Source: Terriglobia bacterium (GTDB taxonomy: Bacteria; Acidobacteriota; Terriglobia; Bryobacterales; UBA6623). Taken from it: a stretch of DNA of 64,000 nucleotides. Positions within the stretch are counted from its first letter, which is position 1. Each line of letters begins with the position of its first letter. Below, one piece after another: positions 39,140 to 47,676 of the stretch. The notes below the pieces were generated by a model. The model had not been told where the DNA came from. It saw only the letters and a list, made by a program, of their open reading frames with translations, and made no database searches. The stretch spans positions 143,763 to 207,762 of the forward strand of contig VXMF01000008.1 in NCBI GenBank assembly GCA_009841225.1, written 5' to 3'. The position numbers were made by a program, and so were the translations under genes.

Positions 39140-39673
39140 ATGAATGTGAGAAGTTGGCTCGCGACGCTGTTCTGCGGGCTCGCGATTCTATTGGCACCGG
39201 TAGCGCTAGTGGCCGGCGAGGGGTTTGTCGGAGAGGCCGAAGGCCGCTTGGCCGAACTCGAGGAGAAGTTCACGGGGTTGTGCGACGTCATGGTTGGAGA
39301 CAAGCAGACTTACCGGCCCGGCGAGGACGTGCGCTCAATGTCGGAGGTCTTGCTTCACGTCGCGTCCGCGAACTATTTCGTAGCGCGGGCGTTCGGCACG
39401 AATCCGCCCGAAGGGCTTGACGTGAGAGGCTTGCAGGATTCGACGACCGATGCAGCCGAGATCAAGTCCGCCCTCGAGAAATCGTTCGCCCATCTCCAAG
39501 GCGCGGTCGGCAAGCTATCGGCGAGCGAAGCCGACAGCGCGATGAAGATGTTCGGCCAAGACACCACCAAACGCGGCGCGATGTTGATGGCCCTCAACCA
39601 CCTTAGCGAGCATCTCGGCCAGATGATCGCCTACACTCGCGTCAACGGGGTGACTCCTCCATGGAGCGAGTAG
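39140..39673 (+). CDS. DinB-like protein with signal peptide
   Basis: 177 residues: a signal peptide (residues 1-26, ending VALVAGEG) and a DinB/YfiT-like four-helix bundle. Histidines in LLHVASANYF and NHLSEHLGQMIAY match the metal-site triad of the family. DinB-like proteins act as thiol-dependent metalloenzymes or glutathione/bacillithiol-type transferases, normally in the cytoplasm; an exported version is less common but frequent in Acidobacteriota. Its 3' end overlaps the next gene by 13 bases. Confidence 0.82.
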   Translation: MNVRSWLATLFCGLAILLAPVALVAGEGFVGEAEGRLAELEEKFTGLCDVMVGDKQTYRPGEDVRSMSEVLLHVASANYFVARAFGTNPPEGLDVRGLQDSTTDAAEIKSALEKSFAHLQGAVGKLSASEADSAMKMFGQDTTKRGAMLMALNHLSEHLGQMIAYTRVNGVTPPWSE

Positions 39674-40464
39674 CACCTATCCCGACCCCAGGCACGGCCG
39701 GGCGCGCCAATCCGCTCCTCTGGGCGCTGTGCCTGGCCGTCCTGTCGCTGCCCCTGGCCGCACAGGAGCTCGCCCTGGATTCCGCAGAAGGGCTGGAGCT
39801 GGTCAACGTCCTAGCGACGCCCGACTCACTCGACGGCCAGCGAGGCCTCAAGGTGAGCGCTGATCCCGAGGTCCTGCAAGCGACCCGAGAGAGGCGGGCG
39901 GAAATGATGGCTGCCATGCGAGCGCGCGGCGAGCAGCCGCGGGGCCCCGGTACATTCGAGGCGCTGCGCACCAATCATCTCGCTATCGTCAAGGATTCGG
40001 AATTCGGAAACGGCACCATCGAGGTCGAGGTTTCCGGCCAGCCCGCTCCGGGGGCGCAGGGCGGCGCGCGGGGATTCGTCGGCATCGCCTGGCGGCTGCA
40101 GGAAGACCGCAAGACCTACGACTGCTTCTACCTGCGGCCGACCAACGGGCGGGCCGACGACCAAGAGCGTCGCAACCACACGGTCCAGTACATCTCGCAT
40201 CCGGAATGGACGTGGTTCAAGTTCCGCAACGAGACGCCCAGCCGCTACGAGACGTACGCCGATATCGTGCCGGGCGAATGGATCAAGGTCAAGATCACCG
40301 TGGACGGCGAGAAGGCCCGCATCCACGTCAATGGCGCCGAGCAGCCGACCCTGTTGGTGAACGACGTCAAATCCGGCGCGAATGCGTCCGGCAAGGTCGC
40401 GCTCTGGCTGGAAGGCTCGACCGTCGCGCACTTCCGCAACCTGAAGATCACCCCCGCTCCCTGA
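39661..40464 (+). CDS. Exported DUF1080/LamG-like beta-sandwich protein
   Basis: 267 residues with a signal sequence (LLWALCLAVLSLPLAAQ). The body is all-beta and resembles the DUF1080 (3-keto-disaccharide hydrolase-like) concanavalin fold: NGTIEVEVSGQ, GFVGIAWRLQEDRKTYDCFYLRP, GEWIKVKITVDGEKARIHVNG and VALWLEGSTVAHFRNLKI. The catalytic assignment is uncertain. It starts inside the end of the DinB gene, suggesting one operon running on to the aldo/keto reductase 75 bases later. Confidence 0.78.
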   Translation: MERVAPIPTPGTAGRANPLLWALCLAVLSLPLAAQELALDSAEGLELVNVLATPDSLDGQRGLKVSADPEVLQATRERRAEMMAAMRARGEQPRGPGTFEALRTNHLAIVKDSEFGNGTIEVEVSGQPAPGAQGGARGFVGIAWRLQEDRKTYDCFYLRPTNGRADDQERRNHTVQYISHPEWTWFKFRNETPSRYETYADIVPGEWIKVKITVDGEKARIHVNGAEQPTLLVNDVKSGANASGKVALWLEGSTVAHFRNLKITPAP

Positions 40465-40539: not shown

Positions 40540-41433
40540 ATGAGAAGACGAGACTTCGTCCGCCACTCCCTATTGGCAGGGGCTCCGCTAGCGGCGCTGC
40601 AGCACAATCTCTTCGGGGCAGTCACCGGCTACTCGGAGAACCCGGCGCGTCGCTATGCCTACGACACCGTGCCGCTGGGTCCGGACGGCCTGAAGCCGTC
40701 GCGGCTAGCCATGGGCACCGGCACCAGTGGATTCCGCGGCGCGTCCAACCAAACCCGCAAGCTGGGCGTGGAGGGCTTGGCGGACCTGTACCGCTTCGGC
40801 TTCGATAGCGGGCTGAACTTCTGGGACACCGCCGATGCCTACGGCAGCCACCCGCACCTCAGGCGGGCCCTGGAAGACATCCCTCGCGAGAAGGTCGTGA
40901 TTATGACCAAGTCCACCACCAAGACCGCGAAGGGCATGCGCGAGGACATCGAGCGCTTCCGCAGGGAACTCAAGACCGACTACATCGACCTGCTGCTGTT
41001 GCACGCGGTGCGCGAGGAAGACTGGCCGGTCCAGCGCCAAGGCGCCATGGACGTGATCAACGAGTACAAGCAGAAGGGCATCGTCAAGTCACGCGGGATC
41101 TCCTGCCATTCGCTGCCCGCGCTGCGGCAAGTCCACAAGCAGGAGTTCATCGACGTAGACCTGGCCCGGGTCAACGCAGTTGGCGCCCGCATGGACGCCG
41201 ACCCGGCCACCGTCATCGAAGAGCTTTGCAAGATCAAGGCGGCGGGCAAGGGCGTCATCGGCATGAAGATTCTCGGCGAGGGCGTCCTGCGCGACCGCGT
41301 GGGCGAGGCCCTGCAGCATGCGCTGGCTCTGGATTGCATCGACTGCTTCACGATCGGAGCGGAAGACCGTTACGAGTTGGCGGACCTAGTCCAGCGAATA
41401 CCCGAGGCGTCCACGCTCGGCTGGCACGCCTAA
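40540..41433 (+). CDS. Aldo/keto reductase with Tat signal
   Basis: 297 residues. RRRDFVRHSLLAGAPLAAL is a Tat signal. The AKR catalytic tetrad is placed as expected: Asp and Tyr in DTADAYG, Lys in VIMTKSTTKT and His in LLLHAV. NADPH-dependent AKRs are normally cytoplasmic, so an exported member needs either a bound cofactor or a different electron partner. The selenium-candidate rhodanese follows 12 bases later. Confidence 0.85.
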   Translation: MRRRDFVRHSLLAGAPLAALQHNLFGAVTGYSENPARRYAYDTVPLGPDGLKPSRLAMGTGTSGFRGASNQTRKLGVEGLADLYRFGFDSGLNFWDTADAYGSHPHLRRALEDIPREKVVIMTKSTTKTAKGMREDIERFRRELKTDYIDLLLLHAVREEDWPVQRQGAMDVINEYKQKGIVKSRGISCHSLPALRQVHKQEFIDVDLARVNAVGARMDADPATVIEELCKIKAAGKGVIGMKILGEGVLRDRVGEALQHALALDCIDCFTIGAEDRYELADLVQRIPEASTLGWHA

Positions 41434-41445
41434 CAGGAGGACGAG

Positions 41446-41892
41446 ATGACAAGAGCACTAGCATGTGGGGCTTTCTCGGCCGCCCTGGCCCTGGCGGCCT
41501 GCGGCGGAGGCGAGAGCCCCGACACAGCCACTTCATCGGAAAGCGAGGCGATGGCGACCGAGGTCGCCGCTCCGACCGAACTTGACGTCGAGAACGTCGC
41601 GACGCGGCTGGCAGGCGGAGAAGACATCTTCTTGCTCGACGTCCGCACGCCCGAGGAACTGGTGCAGGACGGGGCGATCGAGGGCTACACCCACATCCCG
41701 ATCGACGAACTCGAGGGCCGTTTGGCGGAAGTGCCCCGCGACAAGCCCATCGTGGCCTATTGACGGCGCGGTGGAAGGGCCTCCCGTGCGGCGGCCATGT
41801 TGAGAGAAAACGGCTACGAGAACGAGATCCAGTTCGGAGGGATCGAGGGCTGGGTCGAAGGCGGCCAAGAGCTCACGCAAGTGTCGGAGTAG
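41446..41892 (+). CDS. Rhodanese-like lipoprotein, probable selenoprotein (in-frame UGA)
   Basis: 148 codons if UGA at 41761-41763 is read through. Residues 1-19 are a lipoprotein signal (LALAAC, Cys19). A rhodanese domain follows: IFLLDVRTPEEL, YTHIPIDELEGRL, KPIVAY. The next codon is TGA, exactly at the catalytic Cys of the CxxGxR loop; the same frame then continues RRGGRASRAAAMLRENGY, FGGIEGWVEGG and ends at TAG 41890-41892. So Sec106 would replace Cys. AGGAGG precedes the ATG. Downstream of UGA an imperfect hairpin (41767-41790) with a GGG-containing loop and a bulged U resembles a bacterial SECIS, though the loop is closer to UGA than usual. Alternative: a nonsense mutation or sequencing error, in which case the gene is broken. 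Confidence 0.75.
41767..41796 (+). promoter_or_regulatory. Candidate SECIS-like hairpin region
   Basis: Two mutually exclusive folds are possible just after UGA. Fold A: CGCG-G-(U bulge)-GGA pairing with UCC-C-(G bulge)-UGCG, apical loop AGGGCC at 41776-41781. Fold B: GGCC-UC pairing with GG-(C bulge)-GGCC, loop CCGUGC at 41784-41789, 20 bases from UGA. Fold A has the GG loop and bulged U known from SelB-binding elements but only 12 bases of spacing. Done by hand, not with an energy model. Confidence 0.35.
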
Positions 41893-41988
41893 CCGCCAGT
41901 CGAAGATCGGACCTATTGGAGCCGTCGGCCGGAACTCGGCCTGACGTCTCGCTGACCCGCGTCATCGCCCGATTGATATAGTCAGGCC

Positions 41989-43152
41989 ATGCAGCGCAGG
42001 CATTTCCTCGCGACCGCACTCGCGGTCCCACTCCGCGCCCAGGTCCGCTACCGAGTCGGAGTCATCGGCCACACCGGCCGGGGCAACTATGGCCACGGCA
42101 TCGGGGACGTCTGGCCCGTGTTCCCCCAGACCCAGGTCGTCGCAGTCGCCGACCCCGACGAGGACGGCCGAATCAAGGCGCAAGAGCGGACCGGCGCCGC
42201 GCACGCTTACGCCGACTACCGGGAGCTGCTCGCGACGGAGAAGCCCGATATCGTCAGCATCTGCCCGCGCCACACCGACCAGAGGCGCGCCATGGTGACT
42301 GCGGCCGCCCAAGCGGGCTGCCACATGTATCTCGAGAAGCCCTTCGCCGCCACGCTGGAAGACGCCGATCAAATGGTGGATGCCATCCGCAAGGCCGGCG
42401 TCAAGGTCCAGCTGGCGCACCAGATGCGGCGGTCTCCCTTCACGCTCAAGGCCCTGGAAATGATTCAAGCCGGCGAGATCGGCGAGATCCACGAGGTGCG
42501 GGGACGGGGCAAGGAGGATTACCGCGCGGGCGGCGAGGACTTGGTCGTGCTCGGATCGCACATCTTCGACATGATGCGCGCCGTGCTGGGAGATCCGGAA
42601 TGGGTCTTCTCCCACATCACTTCCAAGGGCGAGGAACTCAGCTTCGACCACTTGCGCAAGCCCAACGAGCCCATCGGACCCATCGCCGGCCGCCAGATGT
42701 CCGCGATGTTCTCGTTCGGGCAAGGCCGCCACGGCTACTTCGCCTCGAACGAGTCCAGCCAGACCCATCCGTGGCGCTTCGGAACGCGCGTTTTCGGCGC
42801 CAAGGGCTGTATCTTCCTTCCCAACGAGGTCTACGACGAGAGCTCGGAGGCCTACATCCTGCGATCTCCCGCGTGGGTGCCGCGACGCGACCGGAAGTGG
42901 GAGCTGATCGAGCCGGAGCACCGCAGTTTCGGCAGCGAGCGCCACCTCACCGCCAACGCCCTGATGGTGGAAGACCTGCTGCGGGCGATCGAGACCGGCG
43001 GCGAGCCCGCCTGCAGCGAGCGTGCCGGACGCTGGACGGTCGAAATGACACAAGGCATGTACGCCTCGCAACTCCAGCGCAAAGTGATCGACTTCCCGCT
43101 AAAGGACCGCGTGCATCCGCTCGAGGGCCTGCGCGCGGACGGCCGGGCCTAG
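41989..43152 (+). CDS. Gfo/Idh/MocA oxidoreductase, exported
   Basis: 387 residues. A short Tat-like export sequence (QRRHFLATALAVPLRAQ) is followed by the NAD(P)-binding fold (YRVGVIGHTGRGNYG, VVAVADPDE, EKPFAATLEDAD) and the Gfo/Idh/MocA C-terminal domain. The Lys of EKPFA is the conserved substrate-site residue. Exported relatives such as glucose-fructose oxidoreductase keep their cofactor bound. Likely acts on a sugar or cyclitol. Ends four bases into the convergent hypothetical gene. Confidence 0.88.
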   Translation: MQRRHFLATALAVPLRAQVRYRVGVIGHTGRGNYGHGIGDVWPVFPQTQVVAVADPDEDGRIKAQERTGAAHAYADYRELLATEKPDIVSICPRHTDQRRAMVTAAAQAGCHMYLEKPFAATLEDADQMVDAIRKAGVKVQLAHQMRRSPFTLKALEMIQAGEIGEIHEVRGRGKEDYRAGGEDLVVLGSHIFDMMRAVLGDPEWVFSHITSKGEELSFDHLRKPNEPIGPIAGRQMSAMFSFGQGRHGYFASNESSQTHPWRFGTRVFGAKGCIFLPNEVYDESSEAYILRSPAWVPRRDRKWELIEPEHRSFGSERHLTANALMVEDLLRAIETGGEPACSERAGRWTVEMTQGMYASQLQRKVIDFPLKDRVHPLEGLRADGRA

Positions 43153-45208: not shown

Positions 45209-45676
45209 GTGGCTATGCTGTCTGTGCGAATGGTTGGGCGAATCCGCACTAGTCTCACGCGAACCAATGCGCGAGCGGCCTTGTGCGGCCTCGCCTGCGG
45301 GGCCGTTCTGGCGGTCGCTCCTGGCGCGTCCGCGGAGCGCATGCCGGCCGAGCAGGCCAAGGCCCTGCAGAACCCAGTCGCTTACGCACCCGAGGCCGTC
45401 AAGGCCGGCCGCAACGCCTATCTGCGGCTGTGTCAGTACTGCCACGGCGCCGACGGCAGGGCCCAGGCGAATCCGGACTTCGAGGCGCCGAGCCTGCGCG
45501 ATCCGGACGAGTGGCGTTACGGAGCAACGGACGGCGAAATCTTTGTGTCGATCCGGGACGGCGCCGGCCACGAGATGCCACCATTTGGAAAGCAGCTGCA
45601 AGATGACGAGATCTGGCGGGTCGTGCTATTCATCCGCAGCATCGGACCGAAGGAGCTCCGCCCACAGACGCCCTGA
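45209..45676 (+). CDS. Monoheme cytochrome c, exported
   Basis: 155 residues from GTG 45209; ATGs at 45215 and 45230 are alternatives that still keep the signal peptide ([20 protein letters not shown]). One c-type heme motif CQYCHGADG and a distal Met candidate in [10 protein letters not shown] give a small class I cytochrome. The ThDP-enzyme gene begins 47 bases later, so the cytochrome is a plausible electron acceptor for it. Starts just after the terminator at 45181. Confidence 0.87.
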
Positions 45677-45723: not shown

Positions 45724-47676
45724 ATGGCGAGCAAGCACAGCAAGGCTGAGCACACCGTGTCGAGGCGCGGATTCGTGACCAAGGGGGCGGTGGCGGCAGC
45801 GGTCGCGGCCGGCGCTGACGCGGCGGCATCGACCACCGAGCGACACGACAGCAACATCAAACTCCCGAGCGAGGTGCCGGCGAGCCTGGCGGAGGACTCC
45901 AAGCCTCCCGACTTCCCGATGACAGGCGCACAGATCTTCGCCAAGGCCTGCAAGGCCGAGGGACTGGCCGCGCTGTTCTGCGCCCCGGGCAACTATGTCG
46001 TGATCAACGCCATCGCGTCGGAGGGCATTCCCAGCTACGGCGGCCGCACGGAAGGCATGATGTGCGCCGCTGCGGACGGGTTCGCCCGCGTGACCGGCGA
46101 GGTCGTGGCCGCATCGGGCACCGAGGGCCCCGGCTTCACGAACATGATCATGAACATCGCCGCCGCCAACTCGGCGCGCTCGCCGCTGCTGGTGCTGGCG
46201 AGCAACATGACTGTGGGGCTCGAGGACACCGAGCACGGCATCCAGCGGGTCTACCAGCAGCCGACCACCGAAGGCATGAAGAAGTACGGCAAGCGCCTCA
46301 TCAATCCCGAGCGCGTGCACGAATATGCCGGCTACGCCTTCCGCCAGCTCAAGACCGGCGTTCCGCGACCGGTTCATCTGGACTTTCCCGGCGAAGTGGC
46401 GCGCGAGCGCTTCGACAGCGCCGAGGATCTGCGCTTCTTCTACGACAAGTCGAAGTACCGCACCGAATCGCGTCCGCATCCGTCGCCCAAGGAAATTGCC
46501 AAAGCGGCAAGCATGATCGCCAAGGCGGAACGCCCGATCATCGTGGCCAGCGCCGGCGTCTTCTACAGCAAGGCTTGGGACGCGCTCAAGGCCGTTGCCG
46601 AAAAGGCCGACATCGCGGTCGTGGAATCGGGCCCCAGCCGAGGCCACTTCGGTGACGAGCACCCCCTCTCAGCCAATGCAGCCCCCGACGCCCTGTTGAG
46701 CGCCGACCTCGTGGTCTTGATCGGACAGTACTGCATGCCCAACATCGGCGAATACTCGTTCGATCCGGACGTCGCCTACATCCGCATCGACCCCGACGCG
46801 GCCGATATCGGGCGCAACCTGCCGATCGACCTCGGCATCGTGAGCTGCGAAAAGGCCGCCTTGGAGGCCCTTGCCGAGGCCGTGCCCAAGAAGAGGCGCC
46901 CGGCTTGGCGCGACGAGCTGGCGGCGGCCCGCGCGGCGTTCGAAGCCGAGAACGACGAGCACTACAAGCTCGGCCTCAAGTACAGCGCCCAGGCCGGGTG
47001 CGTCCATCCGGCCGTGATCGCTGCGGAGATCGAGAACCTGCTCTACAAGGGAGATATCCCGAAGGAGCAAACCACCGTGGTGTCCGGCGGCTACGGCATC
47101 GGGCGCTACACGCGCCGACGGCTGAGAGCGTTCCGCCCAGGCCAGATCTGCAACGGGGCTTACCAGTACGGAGCGATCGGGCCAGACGTCGGCTACACGG
47201 TCGGCGCCGGCGCAGCTGTGCAGCAGGGCACGGGCCCGCAAGCCCCCTACAAGGGCGCGCCTGTGCTCGCCGTAACGGGCGATGCTGGATTCGCCTACTC
47301 AGGCATGGAGATGGAGACTCTGAGCAAGTACCGGATTCCCACGATCATGGTGGTGTACAACAACAACGCTTGGGGAGTCTGGCGCAGCGGCGCCAGCGGC
47401 GGGCGCAGCGAGACGGCCCGCGCCCAGCACATGTACCTGTTCCAAGAGAATCTGCGCTACGAGAAGATCGGCGAAGCCCTCGGGGCGCGCGGGGAATACG
47501 TGACGAAGGCCGAGGACCTAGCGCCGGCCCTGGCACGCAGTTACAAGGCGGCGTCGGACGAGCGGCTCTCGACGGTCATCAACTGCCAGGCGATCAAGGA
47601 GTTCTGGAGCGCTCGGGACTATCCCCCGGGCCTGCTGCAGAAGGTCGAGCCGGGCTGCATGGCCTACTACCACTGA
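45724..47676 (+). CDS. Tat-exported thiamine-diphosphate-dependent enzyme
   Basis: 650 residues. [18 protein letters not shown] (residues 13-30) is a strong Tat signal. The mature part is a three-domain ThDP enzyme of the acetolactate synthase/pyruvate oxidase/benzoylformate decarboxylase class: catalytic Glu in [18 protein letters not shown] (Glu110), central nucleotide-fold domain and the ThDP/Mg motif [15 protein letters not shown] to VVYNNN (about 519-549). ThDP enzymes are normally cytoplasmic; export as a folded holoenzyme by Tat is logical. Reaction unknown; decarboxylation or oxidation of a 2-oxoacid is the family default. AAAGGAGA precedes the ATG. The next gene overlaps its stop. 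Confidence 0.87.

Follow-up and report, generated by a model that had tools for sequence, protein, structure and literature searches.

Does the single TGA within the gene of a small rhodanese-like lipoprotein end the protein or encode selenocysteine (Sec), and what would a Sec at that position do? The question was raised by a locus in the window, the whole stretch of 64,000 nucleotides that was analyzed, for which a preliminary description had proposed a selenoprotein. From the comparative sequence evidence, the gene very probably encodes a bona fide bacterial selenoprotein with SECIS-guided UGA decoding at the rhodanese catalytic position. Selenoprotein status itself appears near certain on these grounds, and Sec decoding together with the catalytic position of residue 106 is strongly supported. 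For function, a periplasmic sulfurtransferase with Sec as the sulfur carrier is the most likely reading and is held with fair assurance; we infer its location, chemistry, and substrate.

Reading frame and protein features

The following features of the gene were recognized.

41435 to 41440, plus strand: Shine-Dalgarno sequence AGGAGG, read from the sequence and also present in close relatives.
41446 to 41892, plus strand: predicted Sec-rhodanese lipoprotein coding sequence, ATG to TAG (41890 to 41892), 148 amino acids, supported by translation, PF00581, and orthologues.
41446 to 41502, plus strand: predicted signal peptide with lipobox LAAC, Cys19 codon at 41500 to 41502, read from the sequence.
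41599 to 41856, plus strand: rhodanese domain, residues 52 to 137, supported by PF00581, the AlphaFold model, and PDB rhodanese matches.
41761 to 41763, plus strand: predicted UGA selenocysteine codon at the catalytic position of the loop U-R-R-G-G-R, aligned with Cys orthologues.

The frame 41446-41892 reads MTRALACGAFSAALALAAC...KPIVAY-[TGA]-RRGGRASRAAAMLRENGYENEIQFGGIEGWVEGGQELTQVSE-TAG, and its sole interruption in translation is the one TGA at 41761-41763, corresponding to residue 106. The Rhodanese profile PF00581 spans residues 52-137 unbroken through the TGA read as Cys or Sec (E 2.8e-14, 53.8 bits, against a gathering cut-off of 22.2 bits), and a six-frame, genome-wide search recovered one rhodanese match containing a single TGA (48.9 bits). 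In the alignment with the Cys homologues, the TGA falls on their invariant catalytic Cys (loop C-x-x-G-x-R). An intact frame on either side of the TGA and its location at the catalytic Cys of CxxGxR, both put forward in the preliminary description, were therefore confirmed, as was a normal rhodanese end leading to an in-frame TAG. A Cys at residues 17-20 is present in 16 of 16 family members, both Sec and Cys forms.

Conservation of the UGA codon and selection

Within the same family, TGA was found at this codon in 11 genomes, namely, the genome holding the window, nine others of the same genus, and G014, and TGC in five (G012, G013, and G015 to G017). Loci read from many genera of the order carried TGA (71), TGC (24), or TGT (1); they were chosen as Sec or Cys homologues, and the ratio is no estimate of frequency. 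Many genera across the order had short rhodanese genes whose only TGA was at this codon, and the single-stop members of this short rhodanese family had TGA and never TAA or TAG, apart from the decayed-looking G159:C19, which has TGA plus TAA. The relatives thus share TGA at exactly the same codon in place of the random stops that had been named as a counterargument, and a misread TGC or TGT at 41761-41763, another objection anticipated, is ruled out, since dozens of independent genomes carry TGA there.

Rhodanese genes with one in-frame TGA were also observed in other families of the phylum (G300, G336, G346, G396, G468, G473, G489, G521, G609, G333, and G351). The occurrence in other families of the phylum indicates that the Sec form is distributed more widely than the order. 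Nine changes between Sec and Cys were counted on the best tree of these short proteins, at least two of them on well-supported branches. Adjoining rhodanese copies were seen at two loci, with TGA in both copies at L090 (G138) and with one TGA and one TGC in the tandem at L109 (G179), the latter possibly a snapshot of Sec/Cys exchange. Plasmid records held only distant rhodanese matches, all below 60% identity.

In six close relatives, pN/pS was 0.039 before the TGA within the domain and 0.126 over the 42 codons after it, the latter value indicating that the downstream part is translated and constrained. Synonymous divergence in the Sec genes was lower after the TGA (pS 0.29) than before it (0.59), with no such drop in the Cys genes (0.67 after the codon versus 0.59 before). 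In 67 of the 71 Sec loci, but in 4 of the 25 Cys loci, the base immediately 5' of the UGA (window position 41760) was T; the preference is synonymous and may be part of the decoding context.

A covarying SECIS hairpin downstream of the UGA

A putative SECIS element follows the codon.

41778 to 41796, plus strand: predicted SECIS hairpin, stem 41778-41784/41790-41796, apical loop CGUGC at 41785-41789, supported by covariation, RNAalifold, a covariance model, and energy.

With the U of the UGA numbered 1, the hairpin occupies positions 18-36 and its loop 25-29, starting 15 bases after the UGA. Pairs 24-30 and 21-33 connect third codon positions. Among 68 distinct Sec sequences, pair 24-30 was C-G in 31, G-C in 29, G-U in 3, and another combination in 5 (63 of 68 formed), and pair 21-33 was formed in 66. 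The pairing was not kept in the Cys orthologues, where 24-30 was formed in 6 of 25 and 21-33 in 8 of 25. Shuffling of synonymous codons between sequences, a null that ignores their relatedness, gave maxima of 50 (24-30) and 61 (21-33), and the observed counts were reached in 0 of 2000 shuffles. About five changes of pair type at 24-30 were needed on the tree, so that independent events were few, yet more than one. The loop Arg codon was CGT in 60 of the 68 sequences.

Given 32 sequences that all came from other families than that of the window, RNAalifold predicted the same hairpin unprompted. A pair counter gave 99.4% paired cells, compared to at most 79% for every slid version. A covariance model built from these 32 sequences matched the window at 41761-41805 with 37.8 bits (E 7e-9, runner-up 11.4), part of this score being coding similarity. 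In the genome-wide scan with the model, the window site was by far the best, and the next match (L138, 23.5 bits) was rejected as a second SECIS site, having no TGA at a suitable place. The published bSECIS model requires a loop of 3 to 9 nt that has a G within its first two bases, a stem of 4 to 16 bp, a distance of 16 to 37 nt from the UGA, and an energy of ≤ -7.5 kcal/mol (PMC13188914). The window hairpin agrees with it on all four counts (loop of 5, CGUGC, G in the right place, spacing 21); in isolation it has six pairs plus one mismatch, with -8.7 to -10.1 kcal/mol. Pair 22-32 is a U.C mismatch in the window's genus.

What chiefly weakens the RNA evidence is that longer pieces of the window favor another fold. 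A different structure was preferred when 40 or 58 to 60 bases were folded alone, and the hairpin's own energy was not unusual against dinucleotide shuffles. Because the single-sequence fold of the 58 bases from the TGA gave z +0.65 with the other structure, such folding was set aside in favor of covariation. An Rfam search of 41400-42000 gave no SECIS family above chance. In a subgroup of genus g16 (L043, L044, L045, L080, L096, and L112), the apical hairpin was GCCC-GGA-GGGC or GCCC-GGC-GGGC, and the loop Arg codon was AGG or CGG, not CGT; this hairpin represents a divergent SECIS in the same position. The covarying hairpin, as a predicted element, is the strongest evidence for Sec decoding, and its third-position covariation supports the proposed selenoprotein with evidence beyond that of the preliminary description.

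Selenocysteine-decoding machinery

A search for the Sec-decoding genes had been set beforehand as a test of the proposal, and all four were present in the genome holding the window (5.7 Mb, 98.6% complete): selA (409 bits, cut-off 22.8), selB (368 bits, cut-off 242), selC for tRNA-Sec (71 bits, gathering score 47, called tRNA-SeC(tca) by ARAGORN), and selD (304 bits, cut-off 125), the last on a different contig from the Sec-rhodanese gene. Among relatives, selB was above the cut-off in 34 of 36 Sec-bearing genomes versus 50 of 64 others (p 0.045, kinship ignored). In Sec-bearing G020, selB is split across two contigs, and in Sec-bearing G069 (610 contigs) no selB was found above the cut-off, which reflects either an assembly gap or a recent loss of Sec decoding. 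The Sec-rhodanese of G069 (L081) nevertheless has an intact hairpin. In the window, TGA is the ordinary stop of neighboring genes, e.g., 39661-40464 and 45724-47676, which argues that it has not been reassigned.

Protein fold, active-site loop, and gene neighborhood

The AlphaFold model has a block mean pLDDT of at least 95 across the rhodanese domain. Residue 106 closes the strand 102-106 and is followed by a loop and the helix 110-121, so that the arrangement typical of the rhodanese fold (catalytic residue at the strand end, six-residue loop, and helix) is present in the model. Both sequence and fold matched rhodaneses and persulfide enzymes in the PDB, namely, CoA-disulfide/persulfide reductases, a fusion of persulfide dioxygenase and rhodanese, PspE, and the Wolinella polysulfide-sulfur transferase. 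A six-residue rhodanese loop is the sulfurtransferase form, while Cdc25- and arsenate-type rhodaneses have seven residues. The loop U-R-R-G-G-R has six and, judged from the model, is of the sulfurtransferase type. The mature protein in the window's family has only Cys19, which is predicted to be lipidated, and Sec106 as thiol or selenol; there is thus no internal resolving Cys, and this composition would suit a single-residue sulfur carrier. Many homologues from outside the window's family have a second Cys about 24 residues past the Sec (53 of the 71 Sec loci), and in them the Sec may be resolved in another way.

Two oxidoreductase genes flank the Sec gene.

40540 to 41433, plus strand: aldo/keto reductase with N-terminal RRRDF motif, PF00248, ending 12 bases before the Sec-rhodanese start.
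41989 to 43152, plus strand: GFO/IDH/MocA-type oxidoreductase, PF01408, downstream.

The aldo/keto reductase gene precedes the Sec gene in 10 of 10 genus members and in G014 (82 to 100% identity), and the MocA-type gene follows it in 10 of 11 Sec-bearing family members. Neither adjoins the Cys orthologues of the family. The aldo/keto reductase is a probable operon partner, presumably co-transcribed and sharing a function with the rhodanese. The neighbors of the Sec-rhodanese gene are these two oxidoreductases, and no sulfur-oxidation gene cluster was found beside it. Further downstream, inspection of the open reading frame list by eye showed a probable c-type cytochrome gene (45209-45676) and then a large gene (45724-47676) that resembles a thiamine-diphosphate enzyme and has a twin-arginine-like start (SRRGF).

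Alternative explanations

Three readings without Sec were considered for the TGA. Several neighboring genes stop normally at TGA, as expected if the gene were truncated or a pseudogene with a true stop and a dead 3' part; this is highly improbable and was refuted by the selection after the TGA (pN/pS 0.13), the covarying SECIS, the Sec machinery, and the conservation of the same TGA, almost never TAA or TAG, in dozens of genomes. Recoding of UGA as another amino acid, by near-cognate read-through or a code change, would equally account for a frame that runs on past the UGA and has the same slight probability; it was rejected since neighboring genes stop at TGA, tRNA-Sec and SelB are present, and the closest non-TGA orthologues have Cys at this position, not Trp, Gly, or Arg. 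Although TGA is one base away from TGC and TGT, a sequencing or assembly error is the least credible reading of all, being refuted by the same TGA in dozens of independent genomes, including ten others of the family and many genera, and disfavored by the T that precedes the codon in Sec but rarely in Cys loci.

Two further readings accept the selenoprotein and differ in function. The Sec could serve redox chemistry, i.e., the reduction of peroxide, disulfide, or oxyanion, and not sulfur transfer, a reading that is unlikely but carries real weight. Most uncharacterized selenoproteins are expected to be redox proteins by the authors of PMC9312934, and the second Cys of most Sec loci could resolve a selenenyl sulfide. 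The mature protein of the window's family, however, offers no second Cys beyond the lipidated one, its loop is of the sulfurtransferase form, and its nearest relatives among solved structures are sulfurtransferases and persulfide enzymes. A selenium-carrier function has been suggested for rhodaneses, which favors a role in which the Sec binds selenium as perselenide or brings outside selenium compounds for selenophosphate synthesis. Selenium transport is mentioned in PMC9369223. Such a role is nonetheless improbable here, as the neighborhood has no sign of selenium uptake and selD is on a different contig; the "selenium transferase" suggested in the preliminary description is speculation.

Relationship to known rhodaneses and selenoproteins

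The single-domain thiosulfate sulfurtransferases PspE, which is periplasmic, and GlpE share fold, size, and single-domain organization with the window protein; they are Cys catalysts, whereas the window protein has Sec and a lipobox. Its identity with either was rejected, the scores being below both cut-offs (PspE, 35.2 versus 102; GlpE, 24.2 versus 102).

Predictions of rhodanese-like selenoproteins date back to 2005-2008 (PMC1088965, PMC2398784). Those from the Sargasso Sea (COG2897) and GOS (COG0607, COG2897) are, like the window protein, predicted and have bacterial SECIS-like hairpins, but they come from marine metagenomes, whereas the window gene encodes an Acidobacteriota lipoprotein beside an aldo/keto reductase gene and has a covarying SECIS. 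A 2026 review distinguishes five rhodanese-like selenoprotein forms, two of them with UxxG (PMC13188914). These are forms 2 and 4, assigned to PF00581, with the exemplars MBM9537886.1 and MCY3690685.1 (PMC13188914). With its PF00581 domain and UxxG (U-R-R-G), the window protein answers to their description and likewise has Sec-x-x-G in the rhodanese domain, a likeness by motif description. Neither lipoproteins nor Acidobacteriota are mentioned for these forms in the text of PMC13188914, in contrast to the Acidobacteriota lipoprotein of the window. Forms 3 and 5 (NF041203 rhodanese_LYCAU and NF045694 TsoB) are also rhodanese-like selenoproteins, but their motifs, CxU and UxxxxU, are unlike that of the window protein. 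Identity with NF041203 was rejected (26.7 versus a cut-off of 115 bits, CxU motif absent), and NF045694 was not among the profile matches of the window protein.

Rhodanese selenoproteins, the UxxG class included, are thus already known, and the novelty implied by the preliminary description was too high, such proteins having been catalogued (PMC13188914). New here are the lipoprotein context, the SECIS third-position covariation, and the finding that the Sec form extends across the order and into further families of the phylum. A literature search of incomplete coverage found no experimental activity study of a natural Sec-rhodanese.

Proposed mechanism and implications

In the preferred reading of a Sec-dependent sulfurtransferase, SelB and tRNA-Sec(UCA), guided by the in-frame SECIS 15 to 33 bases past the UGA, would insert Sec at residue 106. 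The chain would then be exported and lipidated at Cys19, and the protein would act either on the outer face of the cytoplasmic membrane or within the periplasm. There, Sec106 would accept sulfane sulfur from a donor such as thiosulfate, polysulfide, or persulfide, forming a selenenyl-sulfide intermediate, and would hand it to a thiol or similar acceptor. When selenium or Sec factors are lacking, translation would stop at the UGA and give a 105-residue product without the active-site loop. A bolder version, in which a lipid-anchored extracytoplasmic selenopersulfide carrier is partnered with a co-transcribed, exported aldo/keto reductase, is rather unlikely; if true, it would represent a selenium-dependent relay of sulfur (or selenium) in the Acidobacteriota envelope that has not been described so far, with Sec kept by selection and repeatedly swapped with Cys.

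Standard annotation would stop the gene at the UGA and report a truncated rhodanese. The finding corrects this reading in many Acidobacteriota genomes and enlarges the selenoproteome known for that phylum. With their many Sec/Cys orthologue pairs and a SECIS covariation confined to the Sec forms, these genes provide a clean natural data set in which to ask why selenium would be used in a sulfur carrier and how SECIS elements originate or decay.
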